A stretch of 64,000 nt of DNA from Oscillospiraceae bacterium (GCA_031270605.1 JAISXG010000005.1:1-64000), one strand, 5' to 3'; shown: positions 9,763 to 52,949, counted from the first letter of the stretch. Notes: generated from the letters alone by a model not told the origin. Made by a program: numbers and translations.

Positions 9763-11049
9763 TCACCTTTGATCACTGATTATGGCGGCGCTGTTGCTTG
9801 CAGACAGGGCCGTCAGGGGGTCATACGGGGCGCCCGAAAGCGTCCCCACCAATAAGGCAATATCCACTGCGTTGGCGGGATTTCCCCATGAATTTCCTGA
9901 AAACACAAAGACTGCGCCATCCACGACAAAGCCCCTTGTGTTATAAGTGACATTGTTTAAAATGTTTCCTGTTGAATTGGGGTTCAAATAGGCCGACTGC
10001 CTCATGGAATAAAACAGGTTTTGTTGCGCCAGCAAATTGGTTACGTTGCCTTGGGTCAAAAAACCTCTGTTTACCACCCATCCCGTTGACGGGCCGGCTT
10101 GCGCGGGGCCATAAATCACATTGTTCGTGAGCCTGTGATTCGCGCCGCTCAATTGAATGAATTCAACCGCATAGGGCGCGTTACTTGTTATGGTCAGGCC
10201 GTCTAAGATCACACCTGTTCCGGTTACCAAAAAAGCGATAACCGCAGCCTGCAAGGAGATAACGGTGTTGGCATAGCCCTGTAACGTTATATTTTGTTTA
10301 TTAACGGCAATTGTGCTTGTAACCGGATACACGCCTGCCAGTATATGAACGGTGCCTGTCGGCGAAACGGCGGAAATGCCCGACTGGATCGTGCCGAAGG
10401 GGTTGGCTTGGGTGCCGTTTCCACCGACTGCGCCAGCTTGCACATACACTGAGAACGGGTTGGGCTCAAAAGTGCCAGTCGGGCCAGTCGCACCTGTGGG
10501 GCCTATTGGGCCGGTTGGGCCTGTGCTTCCGGCTAAGCCTGCCGCGCCAGTCGGGCCTGTTGGGCCTGTCGGGCCAGTGGGGCCGGTTGCACCATCGGAG
10601 GGTCCTGTTGGGCCTGTTGGGCCTGTGGGGCCGGTTTCTCCTTCTGTCACCAATTGTGTGACGATGAGCATCCCCTTAAGCGGTGCGGTAGTTGAAAAAT
10701 AAACGTTGGTATCGCCCGCGTTGATTAGCCCAAAGGTCACGGGCGCAGTCTGCACTTCAAGAATGCCTGTGCCATAGACCTCATCGTTTCTTAAAGGGCT
10801 GTTGCCCTCAATGCAGTCGCTCTGAGAGGACTCAATGGCAAACGAGGTCCCGCTCACCGCGCCTGAGAACTGCACGGCAAGCCACCAGTCAACCATATAA
10901 ATTCCGGGGTCCTGCAATGTGATCACCCCTGAAGCGGGGGTATAGGTGATGTTGCCCGCCGAAAAAGTGACGTCGTCAAACAGGACGTTTGCCAAGGGTG
11001 CGACCGGTGTGGCCGTAACCAGCTCGATTTGCAGCAATGCGTTGCTCAT
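9763..11049 (-). CDS. Collagen-like surface protein with C-terminal beta-helix
   Basis: A 428-residue protein with three parts. The N-terminal 135 residues look like a jelly-roll of the BclA C-terminal/TNF-like type ([27 protein letters not shown]). Then come about 18 collagen Gly-X-Thr triplets (GPTGPTGPT style), interrupted once. The C-terminal 230 residues have the repetitive pattern of a right-handed parallel beta-helix ([44 protein letters not shown]). No signal peptide is visible, as with exosporium/spore-surface proteins such as BclA. The start at 11049 has GGGAG 8-9 bases upstream. Spore coat or surface location is inferred. Confidence 0.8.
10474..10641 (-). repeat. Collagen-like (Gly-X-Thr)n coding repeat
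   Basis: Tandem 9-bp-based repeats encoding GPT/GAT/GPI triplets within the surface protein gene, with one phase break (GPSDGAT). Such tracts vary in length between strains through slippage or recombination. Confidence 0.85.
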
Positions 11050-11185
11050 TTTTTTTGCTCCCATGATACAGAATAAATCCACGAAAAGCCGTGCTATTCC
11101 AATATACTCGGTAAATCTGAAAATGGTGCAAAGTTGCGCGCCGCCGCCCAAGTGTTTTTTGTTTGCGGCTGTTCCGTTACGGGAA

Positions 11186-13933
11186 TCACCGTTCGAGCAG
11201 GCCGTATTTCACCTTGATGCGGTCAAGCTTTTCAAGCATGGGCCGCGCGGCGACGGCCAGAAAGAATACGGTTGCAACCGCATGCACCAAATCAAAGGGA
11301 ATGCCCTGCAAATAGGCCAGCAGAAACATTGCACGCGTGGGTTTCGGCTGCAGAATAATCACAGAGGCAGGATTCATGATGCCGCCGTAGATGAAAAATA
11401 CCGCCAGACCCCCAAACACACACAGCGAGGTCTTGCTGCGCAGCAGCAGGCCTTTTTTAAACAAAACACCCGCAAGAAAACCGATGATGCCAAAGGCAAA
11501 CATCTGCCACGGCGTCCAGATGCCCTGGCCGAAAAACAGGTTGCTCACAAAGGCGCTCACAGCGCCCGTCAAAAAGCCGGCCTCGCCGCCGAACGCCACC
11601 GCAGCGATGATGACGATCGCGGCCACGGGCTTGAACTGCGGCAGCATAAAAAACGCGGCGCGCCCGGCAACGGCGATGGCACAGAGCACAGCGAGCACCA
11701 CGAGCTCCCGCGCCTGCGGCCTGCGCCGTTCAAAAACAAGCGCAAAGGGCAGCATGGTTTCAAGCAGAACGAGCATAGATATGAGGTAATATTTTCGGTC
11801 GCCGAAATAAAACGAGCCCACATAGATGGTAAGAGGGATCAAAAACAAAATCATACCCGCCGCCGCAAGCGTGCGTTTTGAAAGCCTGCGTGAGCCGAGC
11901 GGGGTCTGCGCCGTCCATTCCTTCTCCCCCCGTTTCCAGGAAAGGGTCATGACAATTGTGATGATTTCGAGCGTGAAAAGAAGTATCAGCGCGCTGTAGC
12001 GCCACGCCTCCGCGGGGCTTGCGGCCACTTCCGCAGCCTCGCTGCCGCCCGAAATAAAAGACAAAAATCCGCTCCGGTTTTGTATTGCATAAAAAAGCGT
12101 GGCCGCAAACACGACGGCGGACGCCGCAAGAACGCCAAAGCGCAGGGGCGTAAGCTTTTTTATTTTGCTTTTGGGATTTTCGGGAGCAGGGTCTTTTTCA
12201 AGAGAATAGGCGCCGCCGTCAAAAATATGCGGCGGCTCGGGCGCACCGCCTCCCAGCGCGCAGATGACATCCGCCGCGCTCACAGCGCGAGGGAAAACGT
12301 GCCGCGCCATGCGGTTTGCGGCGGATGTATAAAAGCTGTTGCCCGAAAAAAAAGCTTTGGGTGTGTTTTCGGTAACGATACTGCCGTCAAAGAACAAAGC
12401 GCATCGGTCTGCATATTCGGCGCAGAACTCGATGTCGTGGCTCACCATCACCACGGCCGCGCCCGCGGCGGTGAGCTTGCGCAAAATTGCGGCAAAAATA
12501 ATTTTAAACTCAGAGTCAAGCCCCTTTGTCGGCTCGTCCAGCAGCAGAATGCGCGGGCGCAGCAGCAGCACCTTCGCAAGCGCCGCGCGCTGCTGCTCAC
12601 CGCCCGAAAGGTCATAGGGGTGCGTGTTTAAAAGGGGCTCAAGCCGGCACAGGGCGGCCATGTTGCGCAGTTCCTCAAATTTTTGCTCTTTGGGAATCTT
12701 GCGTTCTGAGAGAATTTCCATCAAATCCTCCCGCACGGTTTTCGCAACAAACAAACTCTGCGGATTTTGCGGCAATACGCCGAGCAGCCCCGCAAACAGT
12801 CTGCTTGAAGGGATATTCTGGATCTCCTCTCCCTCAATTCTGATTTTGCCTCGATAGGCGCGGTTGAGTCCCGCAATCAAAGAAAGCATGGTGGTTTTGC
12901 CGGTGCCGTTTCCGCCGAGCACCGCCGTCAGCTCGCCTGCGCGTGCTTCAAAGGACAGGCCCTTGATGATATCGGGGCCGTCTTTTTCATATTTGAACCA
13001 CGCCCCGTCAATAGAAATGGCGGAACCTGTTTTTGCTTTTTCTCTTTTTATCTGCACGGGGGCAGGGGGCGCTTTTGCTGCCCCGCCAGAATGCATTTGC
13101 GAAATCCACGCGCGCCCCTCACGCACCGTAACGGGGCAAGTCAGGGTGTTTTCTACGCCCGCCCACACCCGCATGGGCACGGGCATGGCGGCAAACATGC
13201 CGTGGTTTTGCGCGCGCAGGCGTTCGCCCACCCCGGCGGGCGTGCCCTCGCACAAAATGCGCCCCTGCTCCATCACAACCACACGATCCGCCATGGGCAG
13301 GGCTTCTTCCAAACGGTGATCGGTCAATAGGACCGTCACCCCCAACTCGCGGTTGATTTTTTTCACACTGGCCAAAAAATCCGCCGCGGCGATCGGGTCA
13401 AGCTGGCTTGTGGGTTCGTCCAGCAACAGCAGCGAGGGCTGTAGCGCCATTACGGACGCAAGCGCGAGCAGCTGCTTCTGCCCGCCCGAGAGCTCCGCCA
13501 CATTTTTATAAAACCAGGTCTGCATGCCGAAAAAGCTTGCCATCTCCGCCGTGCGCAGGCGGATGGAAGGGGTGTCAAGCCCCAGGCTTTCCAGCCCGAA
13601 CGCCAACTCGTGCCAGACCTTGTCCGTCACCACCTGATGCTCGGGGCTTTGCATCACAAAGCCGATTTTCGCCGCCGTGTCGCGGGCGGGGAGTTCGTTG
13701 AGGGGGGTTCCTTCAAAAAAAATCCCGCCGCTTTTTGCGCCGTGAGGTGTTAAAGCGGGTTTTAACTGCCGCAAAAGCGTTGTTTTGCCGCAGCCCGAAG
13801 CGCCGCAGAGCACCACAAACTCACCCTGCCCCAGTGTGAGAGTCACGTCCTGCAAAGCGGCCCGCTCGCGCTCCGGGTAGGTAAAATTCAGGTTTTCAAC
13901 GACAATGCTTGCGTTTTTTGCAGGGTTCTCCAA
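11186..13933 (-). CDS. ECF transporter: two ATPase domains fused to an S component
   Basis: A 915-residue fusion. ATPase 1 (about 8-235) has Walker A GASGCGKT (44-51), signature LSGGQKQ and [11 protein letters not shown]. ATPase 2 (about 303-530) has GGNGTGKT (340-347), LSGGEQQ and [11 protein letters not shown]. The C-terminal region from 597 has about eight hydrophobic segments; residues 740-900 look like an ECF S component ([38 protein letters not shown]). S components bind the vitamin; ATPases power EcfT. Separate A and S genes are usual, so the A-A-S fusion is unusual. TTG at 13933 is the likely start: AAGGAGG lies 7 bases upstream, and the gene overlaps ecfT by 46 bp. It is last in the riboswitch operon, hence probably corrinoid-specific. 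Confidence 0.85.
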
Positions 13934-14799
13934 TGCACGTCCTCCTTCATATTCACAACCAAGGGCATGGCGCACAGGGCAAAATACACCGTGAACGCCA
14001 GCAGCTGCCACAGCGTCGGCTCCGCGCCGCCGAGCATGGGGTAATACACAAATTTCAGCGCACCCCCCACCGCACCGGCAAGAGTCGCGCCGCCGCACAG
14101 CAGCAAAAAGAACAGTGCATAAGCGTCGCGGCGGCCGAAGCGGTAAATTGAGAACGCCGTGCGCCCTTTCAGGCCGTAGCCGCGGCTGCGCATGCTGTCC
14201 GCCGTTTCTATGGCGTTTTCCAGCGCCCATGTGATGAGGATGGAAAGAATTTTCATGCCGTGCTTCGCGCGCCTGAAGATGCCGCCGTTCGATACGTCGC
14301 GCCCCACACAGCGCTGCGCGGCTGAAATCACACGGATCTGCGCCCGAAACCGCGGCACAAACCGCAGCGTGAGCGCCAGCAGCAGCGAGAGCGCGGGGGC
14401 GACGCGCCCGAACAAATACACAAACTTGTCGCTGCTCATTACGGCGTTGAAGCATGAAAACCAGAGAATCACCGTGATCAGCATCACCGCCGCCGAAGCG
14501 CCGTAAAGGATGGATTCGAGCGTGAGGGGGTTGCCGTTGGGCAGATAGGTGAGAATCGTCACGCCCTGATGGCTGAACGCGGGGTTCATCAGCGCCGTGA
14601 GCACCAACAGCGGCAACAGGTAAAGCAACTGAAAGCGCAGGGCCTTTTTGCCGTTTAAACAGAGGGAATACGAAACGGCGCACAGCAGGGAAAGGCCTTG
14701 GCAAACAGGGTGCGCGAACACCATACCGCAGCCGATGACCAAGGTGAAATAGAGCATATTGATCAGCGGGTGATAACCCGAAAAACTGTCTTTATTCAT
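13888..14799 (-). CDS. ecfT: ECF transporter transmembrane (T) component
   Basis: 303 residues with about six membrane segments and the EcfT coupling signature ADSMRSRGYG near residue 205, which contacts the ATPases. A second conserved helix (FVPRFRAQIRVISAAQRCVG) precedes it. EcfT links ATP hydrolysis to toppling of the S component in the membrane. ATG at 14799 has AAAGGAT upstream. Its stop lies inside the ATPase-S gene, indicating tight coupling. No separate S gene adjoins it; the S part is fused to the ATPases downstream. Confidence 0.88.
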   Translation of the reverse strand: MNKDSFSGYHPLINMLYFTLVIGCGMVFAHPVCQGLSLLCAVSYSLCLNGKKALRFQLLYLLPLLVLTALMNPAFSHQGVTILTYLPNGNPLTLESILYGASAAVMLITVILWFSCFNAVMSSDKFVYLFGRVAPALSLLLALTLRFVPRFRAQIRVISAAQRCVGRDVSNGGIFRRAKHGMKILSILITWALENAIETADSMRSRGYGLKGRTAFSIYRFGRRDAYALFFLLLCGGATLAGAVGGALKFVYYPMLGGAEPTLWQLLAFTVYFALCAMPLVVNMKEDVHWRTLQKTQALSLKT

Positions 14800-14808
14800 T
14801 TTGATCCT

Positions 14809-15984
14809 TTAAGGCAGTTCGCCCACGGCGTAGCCGCCGCCCACATCCCTGCCGAGGTCGCAGGTGTAGACCCATTCGATCACGTCGCCGTTTTTAAGCA
14901 CATAGCGGCTGCAGCCGTAGTTGGGGAACCAGCCGTTCACCTTATACATCCAGCCGGAAAGGGAGCCGCAGTCGAATTCATATAAATTGTGGATGCCTTC
15001 AATGTAAGCGGAGTTGTACATGGGGGTAAAGACAAACTCCATGTGGATTTTTGAAGCGCGGGTCTCGCGCTGCAGCACGTCAAACACACTCTCGCCCTCA
15101 TAAAATACCACCGTGCGCGTGGGCATGATCACACCGTCTTTGGGCAGCACCGGGAGCTTGTCCTGATTGAACTGGTCCATGTTCTGCAAAATGGTGTCGC
15201 AGCGGATGGAGAGCGTCGCGGTGTGCTTTTTTTCTTTTTCAACCGTCACATCTTCCGGTTCCACAGGCTTCGGTTTGCCCGAGGGCACTTCGTCCGTCAA
15301 ATATTTGTCTTTTGTCGCGGGCTCGGCGACTGTCGGCTTTTTGGTTTCATTTACATAAGCATCCGTCGCTTTGTTGCTTTGCCCTAGCGCTGTTGCGGAC
15401 GCCCCGGGTTCGGAGCCCGCGGCCGCTTCTGTAGTGCTCTGCTCCTGTGTTGTGCGCCCCACCAGATAAAATAGCCCCTTGAAGGTTTGGGGAATGAGGG
15501 TAACAACGGCGTTGGGCACGTTTTCAAGCGCGGCGGTTGCGACAAGCGTCAGGGAGTCTGTCTGCGCGTCATACTGATAGACCTCCGCGCTGTCTGCGTT
15601 CCACGGATAGGTGAAATACACCGAAAGAGAGGGGCCGCCAAGGATCTCTTCGCCGTTTGCAAAGCTGAATTCCTGCACATGCTCCGCTGAAAGCCGCGCT
15701 TTGACCTCCTGCGTTTTTGCGCTTGAAAAGGTCACGAGCAGGTTTTCATCCCTCGGCTCCTCAAGCAGGCTGCCCATAAAGAGCCATTGATAGGTGATGT
15801 CGTTGCTGTTGCCGTTAAAAATGCCGATGTCGCCGCTTTCCTGAATGCCTTTGAACACCGCCCGGGCGACCCTTCCGTCTTCAGGAATCTGCAGCGTGCG
15901 GTTGATTGTTTCTTTTCCGCAGCCAAAAAAAGACAGAAGCAGCAGGGATAAAAGAAGACAGGCAATTCGTTTGATGTGTTTCAT
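14809..15984 (-). CDS. DUF4430 (transcobalamin C-terminal-like) lipoprotein
   Basis: 391 residues. The lipoprotein signal has the lipobox FFGC (Cys22), so the protein is anchored on the outer face of the membrane. The middle carries a Ser/Thr/Ala/Pro-rich linker (about 185-245). The C-terminal 110 residues are a DUF4430 domain: FYEGESVFDVLQRE, GSLSGWMYKVNGWFPNYG and NGDVIEWVYTCDLG match the beta domain of transcobalamin/intrinsic factor. It sits 10 bp before ecfT, in the place of a substrate-capturing partner for the transporter. ATG at 15984 follows AAGGGGAG by 6 bases; the upstream TTG is not needed. Corrinoid binding is inferred from fold and riboswitch. Confidence 0.85.
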   Translation of the reverse strand: MKHIKRIACLLLSLLLLSFFGCGKETINRTLQIPEDGRVARAVFKGIQESGDIGIFNGNSNDITYQWLFMGSLLEEPRDENLLVTFSSAKTQEVKARLSAEHVQEFSFANGEEILGGPSLSVYFTYPWNADSAEVYQYDAQTDSLTLVATAALENVPNAVVTLIPQTFKGLFYLVGRTTQEQSTTEAAAGSEPGASATALGQSNKATDAYVNETKKPTVAEPATKDKYLTDEVPSGKPKPVEPEDVTVEKEKKHTATLSIRCDTILQNMDQFNQDKLPVLPKDGVIMPTRTVVFYEGESVFDVLQRETRASKIHMEFVFTPMYNSAYIEGIHNLYEFDCGSLSGWMYKVNGWFPNYGCSRYVLKNGDVIEWVYTCDLGRDVGGGYAVGELP

Positions 15985-15996
15985 GTTCAACTCCCC

Positions 15997-16656
15997 TTAT
16001 TGCACCACAATTTTTGCGGAATATGCTTTGAGGGTGCGCATGGCGGTTGCAAGGCTGGTGCGGGTTTCTGCGCCGCCGATTGTAGCGATAACCGCGTCGG
16101 TCACGGTGATATCATAAATCTCGCCGACCTGCGCGCTGTCGCGCAAACGAAAGCGCAGGCGCAGCAAAATATCTTTTTCGTCTTTTTGAAAGCCCTCGCG
16201 CACATAGGCGAACTTGCCGCCGGTAACGTCAAGGTACATGGTGTTGAGTTCGCCCGTTTGGTTCGCGAAAGCCGCATCGCTCTTCCAAATGGGGATATTG
16301 TAGGTCACTTCCTCCTGCGTGGAGTCGCCCAGTGTCATCATGGTTCCCTGGCGCGCGCCGAGGAATTCGAGCTTGTTTTTATCAAACCGCACCGAAAGGC
16401 TGGCGGCGGGATAGACGCGGTCGGGCAGGTCTGAAAGCAGCACGTCAACATTGATTTCATCCCGGTTATCGACCGCAACAGGCGCGGGGGACAACAGCGT
16501 GAGCGAGGGGGCGAACAGCTTTTCTGTCGCGCCGCCCATAAGAAGAATCATCATTATGATGATTGCCGCAAACAGCAGGCCTGCGGCAATGAGCAGGATA
16601 CGGTTCCGTTTATTTTGCAAAAAAGCGCTCTCGCGCAGGGATTTGATGGGATCCAT
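15997..16656 (-). CDS. Membrane-anchored cohesin-like protein
   Basis: 219 residues: a short cytoplasmic N-terminus, one membrane helix (about 20-41), then one extracellular beta-rich domain of about 160 residues. This domain has the cohesin/carbohydrate-binding-like pattern: YPAASLSVRFDKNKLEFLGA (strand pair after the first motif), LLRLRFRLRDSAQVGEIYDI and a terminal ITVTDAVI strand. Cohesins bind dockerins; the gene directly upstream encodes a dockerin-ended protein, so this may be its membrane docking partner. ATG at 16656 follows GGAG by 7 bases. It lies 12 bp before the DUF4430 lipoprotein gene. Domain assignment is by pattern and should be confirmed by profile search. Confidence 0.7.
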   Translation of the reverse strand: MDPIKSLRESAFLQNKRNRILLIAAGLLFAAIIIMMILLMGGATEKLFAPSLTLLSPAPVAVDNRDEINVDVLLSDLPDRVYPAASLSVRFDKNKLEFLGARQGTMMTLGDSTQEEVTYNIPIWKSDAAFANQTGELNTMYLDVTGGKFAYVREGFQKDEKDILLRLRFRLRDSAQVGEIYDITVTDAVIATIGGAETRTSLATAMRTLKAYSAKIVVQ

Positions 16657-16739
16657 ACGTTTCTCCGTTCCGCCGCGGCGCGGCATGGCAGTTGTGGACG
16701 GGGGCGCCGCTCATAATTCAGCGCCCCCGCGCTGAAAAA

Positions 16740-19382
16740 TTACCTGCTGAGAATGGCAAGCTCCGCGCCGGAAACATAATGCTCCAGAATCGCGAGCGCG
16801 TCAAAGGTGTTGATGCGCGCGTCGGAGGTGACGTTGTAGGTCAGAATCTGCAAATCGGTGCTGACGGAGGTTTTGCGCAGCCATGCCGAAATCATGTCCA
16901 GCGCGTCCTGCGCGTTGATGACGCTGTTGCCGTCTGTGTCGCCGAACGCGACGACCGACGCCGCCGCACCCTGCAAATGATAGTTTTCCGCCTTTTGCAG
17001 CTCCTCTGCCGCTTCGGTCGGCACGGTGAACAGCACATAGGTGTTCGCGCCCTGCTTCGCCGTCATTTCGGGGGAGAAAATCAGCTCCGCGCCTTTGTAG
17101 TCAAGGCCGCTGCCCGCGGGAATGCCGCTGAACGTCACGGCCACCGCGCGCTTGTCCGCCGGGATGAGGTCAACGCCGTCGCCTGTGAACAGCTCGCGCA
17201 CCGAAACGCCCACGGTTGAGAAAGCAACGCTGAGTGCCGCTTGCGCGACGTCAAACACAAACGCCGCCGCATCTGATTTTTCTTTGAGCGTCAGGCCGCC
17301 CACACTGACGGTTGCGGCCGATGCTTCGTCCATATCAGACTTCAGCTTCAAGGTCACAGTCAGAAGCTCGGCGGGGAAGGAAGTGCCCGAAATGCCGATA
17401 TTCTCAAGGCTGCTGTTCGTGTAAACAAAGCGTAGCTTTTTGTCCGCCGCGTTGTAGTTCCAAGACAGCGCACCCCCGTTGAGGCGGTCAGAGGCCGCGA
17501 CGTTCTCGACGCTGAACGCGTCGGGGATGTTGAGCAGCCCGTCCATGAGCTTAAAATTGCCCTCGGGGAAGGCCTTTGTTTTCACAAGCACATTGAAGGC
17601 GGTGCCCGCCTTGCCAGTGATCTGCCCGGGCCCTTCCAAAATAATGGAAGCTGCCTGCTCCGGCGGCTCTTCTGTGGACGTGAATGCGTCTGTCATGTTA
17701 TAAAGACTGTTTTTGCCTTTTACAAAGCGGTCATAGGCCACAAGGGCATAGGCCGACTGGTCTGTCGCCATGCCGTTGACGCCTGAGCCCGCGCCCGAAC
17801 CGAGAATGTGGGCAAAGCCGCCGCCCTCAACATAGAAGCGCAGCAGAGCCGTCACGGGATTGTTGCCCTCTTTCACAAAGCGGCTGTCCGTCGCAGGATC
17901 GACGCCCAGCGCCGTTAAGGCCACAATAACCTGCGCGATGCTTTCGGCGTTCACCGAGCCCCATGAGGCATAGCCGCCGTCCGTTCTCTGTATGGCGGAC
18001 AAAGCCGTGACCGCGCGCGTGATTACTCCCGCAACGGCGGGCTGTGAGCGGTAGGGCGCCAGCGCCTGCAAAACCATGGCGGTCATATCCGGATCGGGCG
18101 TGGTGCCGGAAAGGGCAAAACCGCCCGCGTCATCCGTGCCTTTTTTGATTTCCCTGTCCAGAATATAATCAATCAGCCTCTGGCGGGTCACCTGGTCGGC
18201 GGCCGTGGCGGTCGAATAACCAGTCATCGCCGCCGTTGCAAGAACATCCGGAATGTCGTAGCCGTTTGTGTCCAGGGCAATCAGGGCGAACACCGGGCCG
18301 TTGATGCCCTGCTTTTGCACCTGGGGCATGCTTGAAAGCCACGCGGTCAGGTCATAGCCGCCCACATCGGTGGAATCCCTGCCAAGCGAGCTTAACGCCA
18401 TAATCAGGCGTGAGTATTCGGTTTTCTTTGAGCTTGAGCTAGGTAGAATGCCGTTGTTTTCTGTGACAACATCTTCGATTCTGCCGTAATAGTCTTCAAA
18501 ATAGCCTTCCGGTACGGCATGCCCGGCGCGCGCAAGAGAGAGCACAGTCCACTCGCCGCCGCCCGTTCCGAACGCCGGGGCTGGGACGGTGCCGAGCATA
18601 TAGTCAAGCGTGGTGCTGAGATGTATGCTGATATCCACACTGCTTGCGGGCGGCTGCGCCTGCAACGCCGTGTTGAGCGCAGTCAGCACGCTGTCAACCG
18701 CCGATTGCTCCGCGCGCAGGTTCCCGAGCACGGTATACGCCGCGTCATAAGCGCTTTGCACACCGCTCTTTGCCAGAAGTTCCGCCTTGTTTGGCGCGGA
18801 ATTGATTTGCGCAACTTTTGCCGTCAATGCGTCCTTGTCGGCCCGTTCATACATCGGATCGGACATAAAGCTTGAGCCGAGGTCCGCGCCGTAGCCGTAG
18901 ACGGTGAACTGCCAGCGGCAGACGTCGCCGTTCTGCGCGTACACCGCGCCGGCGGAGCGGTCGATATAAGTATTGTTGACCGTGATCATCCAACCGGACA
19001 TGCCGTAATAATCAAACTGCCCGAGCGTCTCCCCCTCCGCTTTGCCGGTTTGGTCAAGCGGGCCGGTTTCGTCGAGAATAAACTGCGGGATGTTCACGGT
19101 AATCGCGCGCGGCAGAATAACTGTCTCCATGTAAAACGTGCCGTCGTCGACTGAGCCGCTGTTTTCGTATTTACCGTCCAGAAGACGGTCGGTGATCTGC
19201 GCGAAGCTTTCACCCTCATAGAAGGGAACCTGCACCGGCTCATACAAAAAACCGTTACCCAACGTGTTGATGTCGACCGAAACCGTGACATAGCCCGCAG
19301 GAGCGTCCTGCGCAAAGGCGGGACCCGCAAAGCTCAGAACCAGACTCAAAACGAGAAGAACACTCAAAAATTTTTTCTTCAT
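16740..19382 (-). CDS. Secreted intrinsic-factor/transcobalamin-like protein with cohesin-like and dockerin modules
   Basis: 880 residues. Signal peptide 1-25; DUF4430 domain about 35-170 (PFYEGESFAQITDRLLDG, MSGWMITVNNTYID, NGDVCRWQFT); a helical FIVAR-like stretch 180-245; an alpha/alpha-barrel of prenyltransferase/squalene-cyclase-like repeats 255-565 (DDAGGFALSGTTPDPDMTAM, TDGGYASWGSVNAESIAQV); a cohesin-like beta domain about 580-720; a further beta region; and a dockerin at 812-878 with DTDGNSVINAQDAL and a second, degenerate loop (TSDARINTFDAL). Mammalian B12 carriers combine the same barrel and beta domain in the opposite order. AAAGGAG lies 8 bases before ATG 19382. It is first gene after a cobalamin riboswitch, so corrinoid binding is the leading hypothesis. 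Confidence 0.85.
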   Translation of the reverse strand: MKKKFLSVLLVLSLVLSFAGPAFAQDAPAGYVTVSVDINTLGNGFLYEPVQVPFYEGESFAQITDRLLDGKYENSGSVDDGTFYMETVILPRAITVNIPQFILDETGPLDQTGKAEGETLGQFDYYGMSGWMITVNNTYIDRSAGAVYAQNGDVCRWQFTVYGYGADLGSSFMSDPMYERADKDALTAKVAQINSAPNKAELLAKSGVQSAYDAAYTVLGNLRAEQSAVDSVLTALNTALQAQPPASSVDISIHLSTTLDYMLGTVPAPAFGTGGGEWTVLSLARAGHAVPEGYFEDYYGRIEDVVTENNGILPSSSSKKTEYSRLIMALSSLGRDSTDVGGYDLTAWLSSMPQVQKQGINGPVFALIALDTNGYDIPDVLATAAMTGYSTATAADQVTRQRLIDYILDREIKKGTDDAGGFALSGTTPDPDMTAMVLQALAPYRSQPAVAGVITRAVTALSAIQRTDGGYASWGSVNAESIAQVIVALTALGVDPATDSRFVKEGNNPVTALLRFYVEGGGFAHILGSGAGSGVNGMATDQSAYALVAYDRFVKGKNSLYNMTDAFTSTEEPPEQAASIILEGPGQITGKAGTAFNVLVKTKAFPEGNFKLMDGLLNIPDAFSVENVAASDRLNGGALSWNYNAADKKLRFVYTNSSLENIGISGTSFPAELLTVTLKLKSDMDEASAATVSVGGLTLKEKSDAAAFVFDVAQAALSVAFSTVGVSVRELFTGDGVDLIPADKRAVAVTFSGIPAGSGLDYKGAELIFSPEMTAKQGANTYVLFTVPTEAAEELQKAENYHLQGAAASVVAFGDTDGNSVINAQDALDMISAWLRKTSVSTDLQILTYNVTSDARINTFDALAILEHYVSGAELAILSR

Positions 19383-19466
19383 AAACACAACTCCTTTTAA
19401 TTTTTTCTGTGGGATTGTCCGTCCTTTTCTTTTTTTTCATCACTCCTTTCTATCGTTTTGTGAACA

Positions 19467-19502
19467 AAAAAAGGCTTTACTGAATCCACATCAGTAAAGC
19501 TG
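19467..19502 (-). terminator. Leader terminator between riboswitch and first gene
   Basis: On the minus strand GCTTTACTGA, a 7-nt loop, TCAGTAAAGC and a run of seven T. It lies between the aptamer (ends 19583) and the first ATG (19382), so it can only act as an attenuator: ligand-bound riboswitch would favour termination. Confidence 0.85.
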
Positions 19503-19582
19503 CACATGCTTTCATAAGGCCCCTTTGGAGACCTTTTTTTGAAAACATCTGCTCTCCTCACCGAAAGCGTGTTCACCGTAAT

Positions 19583-19775
19583 ATGGTAGGTCTCCTGACT
19601 TAAAGCTTCAAACCTAATCCATTCGCCTTCCCAGTCCGCACGGCGAGCCGTGGTTTCCAGTGACCTGCGCAGAGCCGTTTTCGCCCTGCGCTGAATGTTT
19701 CGTAGCTTTTACAGTAGGTGTGAGCTGCCCCGGATTCTCACCGGGTTCCCTGTTAGGCACCCGAAGGTGCGCCAT
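19583..19775 (-). promoter_or_regulatory. Cobalamin (B12) riboswitch
   Basis: Read on the minus strand, the segment shows the conserved cobalamin-aptamer boxes in order: a hairpin with GGTGCC, AACAGGGAA, GGTGAGAATCCGGGGCAG, a central domain with CTGCGCAGGTCACTGG and GGGAAGGCG, and the closing B12 box AAGTCAGGAGACCTACC. Adenosylcobalamin-type aptamers with this layout repress B12 uptake and synthesis genes. Here it heads the five-gene DUF4430/cohesin/ECF operon. Confidence 0.95.
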
Positions 19776-19785
19776 ATACACTTTC

Positions 19786-19815
19786 ATTATAAGGCAACGG
19801 CACGCGCAAAGTCAA
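19786..19815 (-). promoter_or_regulatory. Promoter of the riboswitch operon
   Basis: On the minus strand TTGACT (19815-19810), 18 bp, TATAAT (19791-19786). Transcription would begin near 19779, immediately before the aptamer. Confidence 0.8.
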
Positions 19816-51941: not shown

Positions 51942-52949
51942 TTAATAAGTAAAGTCAAACCATTCATAGGTGCTGTAAATGTTTTGCATCAGCCCCATTG
52001 AAGAACCATCGCCCAAATCCATGTTGATAAGCATGGAGATGTTGACATCGTGCCGCAAGCTTTCGATTTGCTTTGTTACGGGGTCATACTCAATGGTTGC
52101 CGTGCAGTTGAAGTGGCGGAAAGAGATCGTAACCGCAAAAGGCAACTCCTCAAACGGATTGCTGTCACCAAACATCATTTCCTCTGTCAAAGGGAGAAAG
52201 ATCGCACTTGTAAAGCTCTCGATCTGACCGTTTTCATCTTCGGGCAGCAGCTGGGGGTTGAGCTCGTCGTTCAAAACAAATTGGATTTTCTTGTTGCCGT
52301 CTGCAGTGGTGACAGAGGCGGATTTCAGCACCTCAGGCCCGATTCCCGCCGATAAGGCGCCTTCGCCGCGGTCAAACAGGGGAAATCTGCTCATGTCGGA
52401 GCCTTTCGCAACAACGGTTTTATCCTTCATGGCATCCTCCCTCGTTGTTGTCGGAAACTCCTCGGGAAAAAGGTCGTCAAGGTCCTCCGTCACTTCCCCG
52501 TCAAGCAAAACCTGCCTGTTCTCTTTATCAGAAGGCATGTTCATATAATAAATCGTAGAGAATCCGGGTTTGTCTGCCTTACCGTTGTTCATGATCTCAG
52601 CATAAAGATTCAGCGCTTCTGAAAACGCCTTTTCATCATAAGGGCGTTTCTCAAGGCTGGCGGAAACGCGCAGAATCTTCCTGGCGTCAGCGGCCGTAAC
52701 CTCTGCGTCACCGTCATAATTCGCGGCGAGCTTCATGAACCCGGTCACGTTCTTCTCAATGCGGGCAGACATTCTCAGGGCGGTTCGCGCGTCGCTCGCC
52801 GTGATTTTGCCGTTGCCGTCAACGTCGCCGAGGTGATAGGGGTATAAAAAAGTCTTTTCTTCTGCCGCAGCGGCGGGAATATTTGCGCACAGGGCAATAA
52901 GAACCAAAGAAAGCGTGAATACTAAAGCGGAACGGAATTTTTTTCGCAT
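51942..52949 (-). CDS. Exported protein with N-terminal dockerin domain
   Basis: 335 residues. Signal peptide (about 1-28, ending AAAAE), then directly a dockerin: two calcium-loop repeats, GDVDGNGKITASDARTALRM and NYDGDAEVTAADARKILRVS. The remaining 220 residues are a mixed domain of unknown family. A dockerin at the N-terminus just after the signal is less usual than at the C-terminus. It may attach to the same class of cohesin as the B12-operon protein at 15997. ATG 52949 chosen; an upstream ATG (52958) is possible. Confidence 0.8.
   Translation of the reverse strand: MRKKFRSALVFTLSLVLIALCANIPAAAAEEKTFLYPYHLGDVDGNGKITASDARTALRMSARIEKNVTGFMKLAANYDGDAEVTAADARKILRVSASLEKRPYDEKAFSEALNLYAEIMNNGKADKPGFSTIYYMNMPSDKENRQVLLDGEVTEDLDDLFPEEFPTTTREDAMKDKTVVAKGSDMSRFPLFDRGEGALSAGIGPEVLKSASVTTADGNKKIQFVLNDELNPQLLPEDENGQIESFTSAIFLPLTEEMMFGDSNPFEELPFAVTISFRHFNCTATIEYDPVTKQIESLRHDVNISMLINMDLGDGSSMGLMQNIYSTYEWFDFTY

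Follow-up and report, generated by a model that had tools for sequence, protein, structure and literature searches.

A cobalamin-riboswitch operon of an Oscillospiraceae bacterium encoding a putative surface corrinoid capture and uptake system

Background

For many genomes of the gut microbiome, the identification of vitamin B12 transport systems has been described as an open problem (PMC6593275), and the operon reported here is compared below with the closest described systems. It lies on the minus strand, at positions 11,186 to 19,815, of a 64-kb stretch of DNA from an Oscillospiraceae bacterium (GCA_031270605.1 JAISXG010000005.1:1-64000), which was analysed as a whole and is referred to as the window. 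With a probability of roughly 0.7, the locus is read as a cobalamin-repressed surface corrinoid capture and uptake operon, with a private tether between the products of genes A and B, transcobalamin-like halves split between proteins, and CbrT-type import.

The energy-coupling factor (ECF) transporter ECF-CbrT of Lactobacillus delbrueckii (6FNP) contains CbrT, an experimentally shown transporter of cobalamin and cobinamide (PMC5997447). The operon shares its general ECF module and resembles it in a homologous S domain (3e-18), in EcfT with two ATPases, and in its link to B12. It differs in having S fused behind two ATPase domains, an EcfT of its own, a cobalamin riboswitch, and surface capture proteins, whereas a capture partner is not described in PMC5997447. 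The alpha and beta halves of human transcobalamin, when expressed apart, assemble only upon addition of cobalamin, and the isolated beta domain binds cyanocobalamin and cobinamide (PMC5599065). Likeness to human transcobalamin, intrinsic factor, and haptocorrin lies in the beta-domain fold of the DUF4430 domain of gene C and in a barrel of gene A that belongs to the broad alpha/alpha-toroid class. Unlike the human carriers, operons of this type usually have the halves on separate, surface-anchored proteins, the beta-like domain of A comes first, and the barrel has no sequence-level link to the transcobalamin alpha domain. The Bacteroides surface B12-binding lipoproteins BtuG and BtuH are alike in the working proposed here, namely high-affinity surface capture feeding an importer, but their folds are unrelated (BtuG is a beta-propeller), their hosts are Gram-negative, and the partner of BtuG is BtuB and not an ECF transporter. 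Cellulosome surface anchoring, for which a single anchoring cohesin has been proposed in Ruminococcus albus (PMC6118326), is resembled in the cohesin-X-dockerin end of A and the membrane-bound cohesin of B, and the best structural relatives of these modules are solved cohesins and dockerins. In contrast to a cellulosome, the cargo would be a vitamin-capture protein held one-to-one within a single operon, and the dockerin class is distinct from the other dockerins of the genome.

Locus layout and regulatory leader

Along the minus strand, a promoter, a cobalamin riboswitch, and a leader terminator are followed by five tightly packed genes (A, B, C, EcfT, and an ATPase-ATPase-S fusion). Lengths are in amino acids (aa), and model confidence is the predicted local distance difference test (pLDDT).

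19786-19815 (-), sigma-70-type promoter TTGACT-18-TATAAT, 11/12 consensus positions
19568-19791 (-), cobalamin riboswitch aptamer RF00174, 76.6 bits against a gathering score of 31.5, E 4.2e-17
19474-19500 (-), intrinsic terminator of the leader, the expression platform, with a stem of 10 bp and a CTTTTTTTG tail (U-tract)
16740-19382 (-), gene A, open reading frame of 880 aa from ATG, identified by Pfam, orthologue L135, and an AlphaFold model
18873-19301 (-), N-terminal DUF4430-like (transcobalamin beta-like) domain of A, PF14478 1.9e-4
17658-18641 (-), alpha/alpha-toroid barrel of A, 22-member alignment A2, pLDDT mostly >90
17244-17642 (-), cohesin module of A, PF00963 1.2e-3, Foldseek matches to solved cohesins
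16965-17225 (-), X-like beta module of A adjoining the dockerin, kept in 8 aligned proteins, beta strands in the model
16779-16949 (-), dockerin of A, private class (INAQDAL..WLR / INTFDAL), PDB profile matches to dockerins
15997-16656 (-), gene B, 219 aa, N-terminal transmembrane segment followed by a cohesin
14809-15984 (-), gene C, 391-aa lipoprotein with DUF4430 (transcobalamin beta-domain-like) at the C-terminus
14863-15096 (-), DUF4430 domain of C, 66.4 bits in the genome search, pLDDT >90 over most of the domain
13888-14799 (-), gene D, EcfT, transmembrane coupling subunit, CbiQ 1.7e-7 (Pfam)
11186-13891 (-), gene E, EcfA-EcfA-S fusion, two ABC_tran stretches, ECF ATPase TIGR04520, ECF S-component families
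11189-11932 (-), CbrT-like corrinoid S-component domain of E, family profile A8 against the 6FNP chain

The gene E start overlaps the EcfT stop by 4 bases. The locus was confirmed as genuine rather than an artefact, with every element at the coordinates listed, and it is beyond chance because the same arrangement of genes is found again in dozens of genomes. A first-pass annotation made from the window sequence had described the same succession: a cobalamin riboswitch with promoter and leader terminator, a secreted DUF4430/alpha-barrel/cohesin-like/dockerin protein, a membrane-anchored cohesin-like protein, a DUF4430 lipoprotein, EcfT, and the ATPase-ATPase-S fusion. Each of these elements was borne out by the scores above and by the results given below.

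In shuffles of the region, 0.7 promoter sites of such quality were expected by chance. RF00174 was the sole Rfam match within the window and one of two cobalamin riboswitches genome-wide; membership is indicated by the score over the gathering threshold and by the position of the terminator (-14.4 kcal/mol, z -2.4), and then the operon start, downstream of the aptamer. Riboswitches of this class sense cobalamin, and by analogy with them low internal cobamide would allow transcription past the terminator. Riboswitches were mapped as covariance-model hits placed by contig position; a two-motif regular expression was dropped because it missed known aptamers. Of 50 mapped loci, at least about 20 have a riboswitch directly upstream of the operon; of 20 loci from the same order, about 11 have one nearby. 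The second cobalamin riboswitch of the genome (L036 6179-7629; contig C21: 42178-43628) precedes a 158-aa DUF4430 protein and a 210-aa membrane protein that resembles an ECF S-component and gave no Pfam S-family match.

Predicted transcobalamin-beta fold of gene C

The product of gene C matched PF14478 at 4e-17 (62.7 bits, cut-off 23.8) and carries a lipobox-like FFGC, the lipobox being canonical in orthologues. When the predicted structure of its DUF4430 domain was searched against the PDB with Foldseek, matches 1 to 17 were all transcobalamin, intrinsic factor, or haptocorrin (human, rat, or bovine). The best was the isolated transcobalamin beta domain, with a template modelling (TM) score, on the target, of 0.77 for 5no0. 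A sequence-profile search of the domain against the PDB missed transcobalamin, which was found by the fold search alone. The model thus shows a transcobalamin-beta fold. The first-pass annotation had named structure prediction as a way in which the identity of the modules could be refuted; the predictions agreed with this B12-carrier fold and with the solved-cohesin fold of the cohesin of A.

Conservation of the operon and of its surface anchors

Relatives of A, mostly of its barrel part, were found in 68 of 197 searched genomes of the same order, and most of the 20 neighbourhoods inspected cluster barrel, DUF4430, EcfT, and EcfA-A(-S), in that order. When single genomes representing each species were scanned, at least 571 DUF4430 relatives were found. 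Among 80 named loci (Paenibacillus, Clostridia, and Oscillospiraceae among others), DUF4430 adjoins EcfT in 71, the barrel adjoins both DUF4430 and EcfT in 62, and the full barrel-DUF4430-EcfT-EcfA order is present in 58, several others being cut by contig ends. The genome search for the same gene order, suggested earlier as a check, therefore found recurrence, and this order is a conserved, widespread Bacillota operon. No bacterial B12 operon was described in the open-access literature mentioning DUF4430, as judged largely by titles, which is not proof of novelty. The operon type is widespread but seemingly undescribed; each part comes from a known family, and the assembled capture system appears undescribed within the literature searched. 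It defines a testable, widespread surface capture system resembling the human B12 carrier, and cultured relatives of the SLH type (Flavonifractor plautii, Sporobacter termitidis, and many Paenibacillus) make it accessible to experiment.

Related barrel proteins are nearly always surface-anchored, by C-terminal SLH repeats (44 of 65 by motif) or by sortase-type or transmembrane tails. Pfam confirmed SLH in all four SLH-type proteins scanned (L131, L077, L057, and L067) and found no family in the sole sortase-type protein scanned (L087). Within this widespread operon type, the form with cohesin and dockerin is a rare variant. In a tree of DUF4430 and EcfT, dockerin loci fall close to sortase-type loci in two or more separate positions (L135 is incomplete in the tree); repeated exchange of the anchor is only suggested by these sequences.

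Most loci encode the transcobalamin-like halves in separate genes; fusions of barrel and DUF4430 occur in A, in L135 and L177, and in large Paenibacillus proteins. Proteins of 1,500-2,500 aa that fuse DUF4430 and barrel stand beside the operon in L057, L058, L060, L069, and others, and the large protein of L057 adds SLH repeats, which places both transcobalamin-like halves on one wall protein.

Modules of gene A

In the product of A, a signal peptide is followed in turn by the DUF4430-like domain, helical linker, alpha/alpha barrel, cohesin, X-like module, and dockerin (AlphaFold model, mean pLDDT 80.6). Scanned singly, its DUF4430, SQHop-like barrel, Cohesin, and Dockerin_1 matches each fall slightly under the Pfam cut-off. 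These modules are nevertheless regarded as firm, because orthologues score over the cut-off and because the barrel and cohesin of A are backed by predicted structure. The DUF4430 of A scored 22.2 bits in the whole-protein scan (cut-off 23.8) and 25.8 bits, over the cut-off, in the own-genome search; in the orthologue L135, which is 53% identical to A over its length, the match was 1.1e-8. Foldseek with full-length A returned mostly cohesin and complement matches, with TM scores (target) to solved cohesins of up to 0.74 (2jh2) and a further match to 3kcp_A, an entry described as multimodular components of C. thermocellum that interact. The dockerin matched Dockerin type I (PF00404) over the cut-off in the own-genome search (24.7 bits), as did Dockerin_1 in the orthologue L177, and its second EF-hand-like repeat has altered ligand positions.

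Gene B and the putative cohesin-dockerin pair

The hydrophobic N-terminal segment of B is evident in its sequence. The cohesin of the window B is itself under the Pfam cut-off; all four scanned B members match Cohesin (PF00963, best 6.6e-7), and the PDB profile matches of B are cellulosomal cohesins. Six loci were found with a cohesin-X-dockerin end on the barrel protein (the window, G034, G251, G388, L099, and L135), and B adjoins A in all six. A strong match to B was present in 4 of 394 genomes of the order, among which none was found outside dockerin-type operons save one weak partial match. Compared with 29 others from its own genome, whose common pattern is ITAADAR..SAKL, the dockerin of A has a median identity of 30%, versus 52-65% to its five operon orthologues. 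The A-B pair looks private because the dockerin of A is unlike the other dockerins of its own genome and like those of the five orthologues. Most naturally read, these sequences point to a dedicated dockerin-cohesin pair that takes the place of the wall anchor of related operons. If so, the dockerin form would be one of the rare instances in which cohesin-dockerin anchoring serves to capture a nutrient and not to break down polysaccharides, and would extend this mode of assembly from glycan enzymes to vitamin capture. A cellulosome was rejected, as the operon has no glycan enzyme and the dockerin class differs.

The genome encodes about 34 dockerins, one of them in the window at 52680-52832 (-), and only about four recognisable Pfam cohesins, and a stand-alone cohesin protein other than B (231 aa) lies at C66; many dockerins with few cohesin receptors have been similarly described for Ruminococcus albus and R. 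bromii (PMC6118326). This setting, together with the presence of both a cohesin and a dockerin in A, would suit an arrangement in which A self-assembles or docks elsewhere and B serves other dockerins, the role in B12 uptake being the same. That arrangement is nonetheless considered unlikely: B is restricted to the private-dockerin operons, the dockerin of A is unlike all others in the genome, and in homologous operons an ordinary surface anchor occupies the same C-terminal place.

In two genomes, proteins of 1173 and 1176 aa (L178 1175-4696 and L179 4426-7956) have an A-like cohesin-X-dockerin end without a barrel and stand next to very large cohesin proteins of about 2,500 aa, possibly forming another private pair.

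ECF importer and ligand

In a profile search against the PDB, the S domain of E matched CbrT of 6FNP with E 3.1e-18, the next S-component following at 0.014. The S domain is thus closer to CbrT than to other S-components, and it is accompanied by a CbiQ-family EcfT and two ATPase stretches. CbiMNQO-type cobalt uptake was rejected, since no match to CbiM or CbiN was seen among the operon proteins and the S domain is CbrT-like. No match to CbiC or CobS was obtained in the 95%-complete genome, these being the two B12 pathway families searched. Three B12-binding-domain proteins are encoded, one of them in an 806-aa frame and possibly a methionine synthase. Because CbiC and CobS gave no match while B12-binding-domain proteins are present, the bacterium is probably a B12 consumer dependent on import.

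In place of B12 itself, the ligand might mainly be a corrinoid precursor or variant (cobinamide or pseudo-cobamides) or free cobalt. Cobinamide is bound by both CbrT and human transcobalamin beta (PMC5997447, PMC5599065), and EcfT belongs to the CbiQ 'cobalt transport' Pfam family. Against this stand the CbrT-like S domain in an operon with no CbiMN match, a riboswitch class that senses cobalamin, and the lack of a CobS match, which makes completion of a precursor doubtful; such a ligand is judged improbable, more so than the untethered arrangement of A.

Proposed mechanism and points weighed

The mechanism proposed here draws on the parts and their order, the riboswitch, the CbrT homology, the transcobalamin-beta fold of C, the cohesin and dockerin identities, and the co-occurrence of B with the dockerin, as established by sequence or predicted structure. 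Corrinoid binding, B-A contact, and the direction of hand-off are predictions from sequence. Once transcription is permitted at low cobamide, A would be secreted and its C-terminal dockerin would plug into the cohesin of membrane-anchored B, this private plug and socket standing in for the SLH or sortase anchor seen in related operons. The barrel and DUF4430 of A, with the membrane-located transcobalamin beta-like domain of C, may then hold the corrinoid in the manner of the two transcobalamin halves. From C it would pass to the CbrT-like S domain and be imported by EcfT and the fused ATPases. A split clamp is suggested because the transcobalamin-like halves usually lie on separate proteins, and by analogy these would be its two corrinoid-holding halves. 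A more specific proposal is that Bacillota possess a split transcobalamin, in which a wall-bound barrel and a membrane transcobalamin beta-like lipoprotein clamp one corrinoid and feed a CbrT-type ECF transporter, the anchor being on rare occasions swapped for a private cohesin-dockerin pair. It is held tentatively, at slightly worse than even odds. Should the halves clamp B12 separately, transcobalamin assembly would have in this system a bacterial analogue, or possibly a relative.

The first-pass annotation had proposed a complete Gram-positive B12 acquisition machine, built of carriers resembling transcobalamin, a tether formed by cohesin and dockerin, and import through an ECF transporter. 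This is supported by the CbrT homology, the fold of C, the cohesin and dockerin matches, the strict co-occurrence of B with dockerin-bearing A, and the absence of CbiC and CobS matches beside B12-binding-domain proteins; from the gene content we infer that the machine may be complete. Its description of A as intrinsic-factor-like is too simple: the domain order is opposite to that of transcobalamin, and by sequence the barrel stands closest to terpene cyclases. Membership of A in the transcobalamin family as a whole protein (alpha then beta in one chain) is not claimed, because the beta-like domain precedes the barrel.

Several points weigh against the proposed reading. Model confidence is low in part of the DUF4430-like domain of A. 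The barrel is nearest in sequence to terpene cyclases (squalene-hopene cyclase and prenyltransferase toroid families), PF01122, the transcobalamin alpha-domain family, was found in just 1 of 22 barrel members, weakly (E 0.053), and pairwise profile comparisons put the probability of a match to the transcobalamin halves at about 19%. The transcobalamin alpha domain is an alpha/alpha toroid; the kinship of the barrel to it would be a resemblance of fold class only, drawn from established knowledge, and is the weak point. The pairing of B with A rests on genome co-occurrence, and the additional cohesin of A has no known partner. With a genome 95% complete and two pathway families checked, biosynthesis genes could still exist. 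That the barrel protein is an adhesin or glycan binder merely sharing the regulon, with corrinoid handled by C and the ECF proteins only, would fit the resemblance of the barrel to enzyme toroids and the presentation of enzymes and adhesins by cohesin-dockerin systems elsewhere, but is the least probable alternative given the barrel beside DUF4430 and EcfT in 62 of 80 loci, the barrel-DUF4430 fusions, and the toroid shared with the transcobalamin alpha domain.

Other observations

The operon copies in L063 and L135 are clearly of the Bacillota type and occur in bins labelled Nitrososphaerota and Bifidobacteriaceae, respectively; these labels are probably binning errors. Directly 3' of the operon in the window, on the same strand, a collagen-like protein with GPTGPTGP repeats is encoded at 9763-11151 (-).

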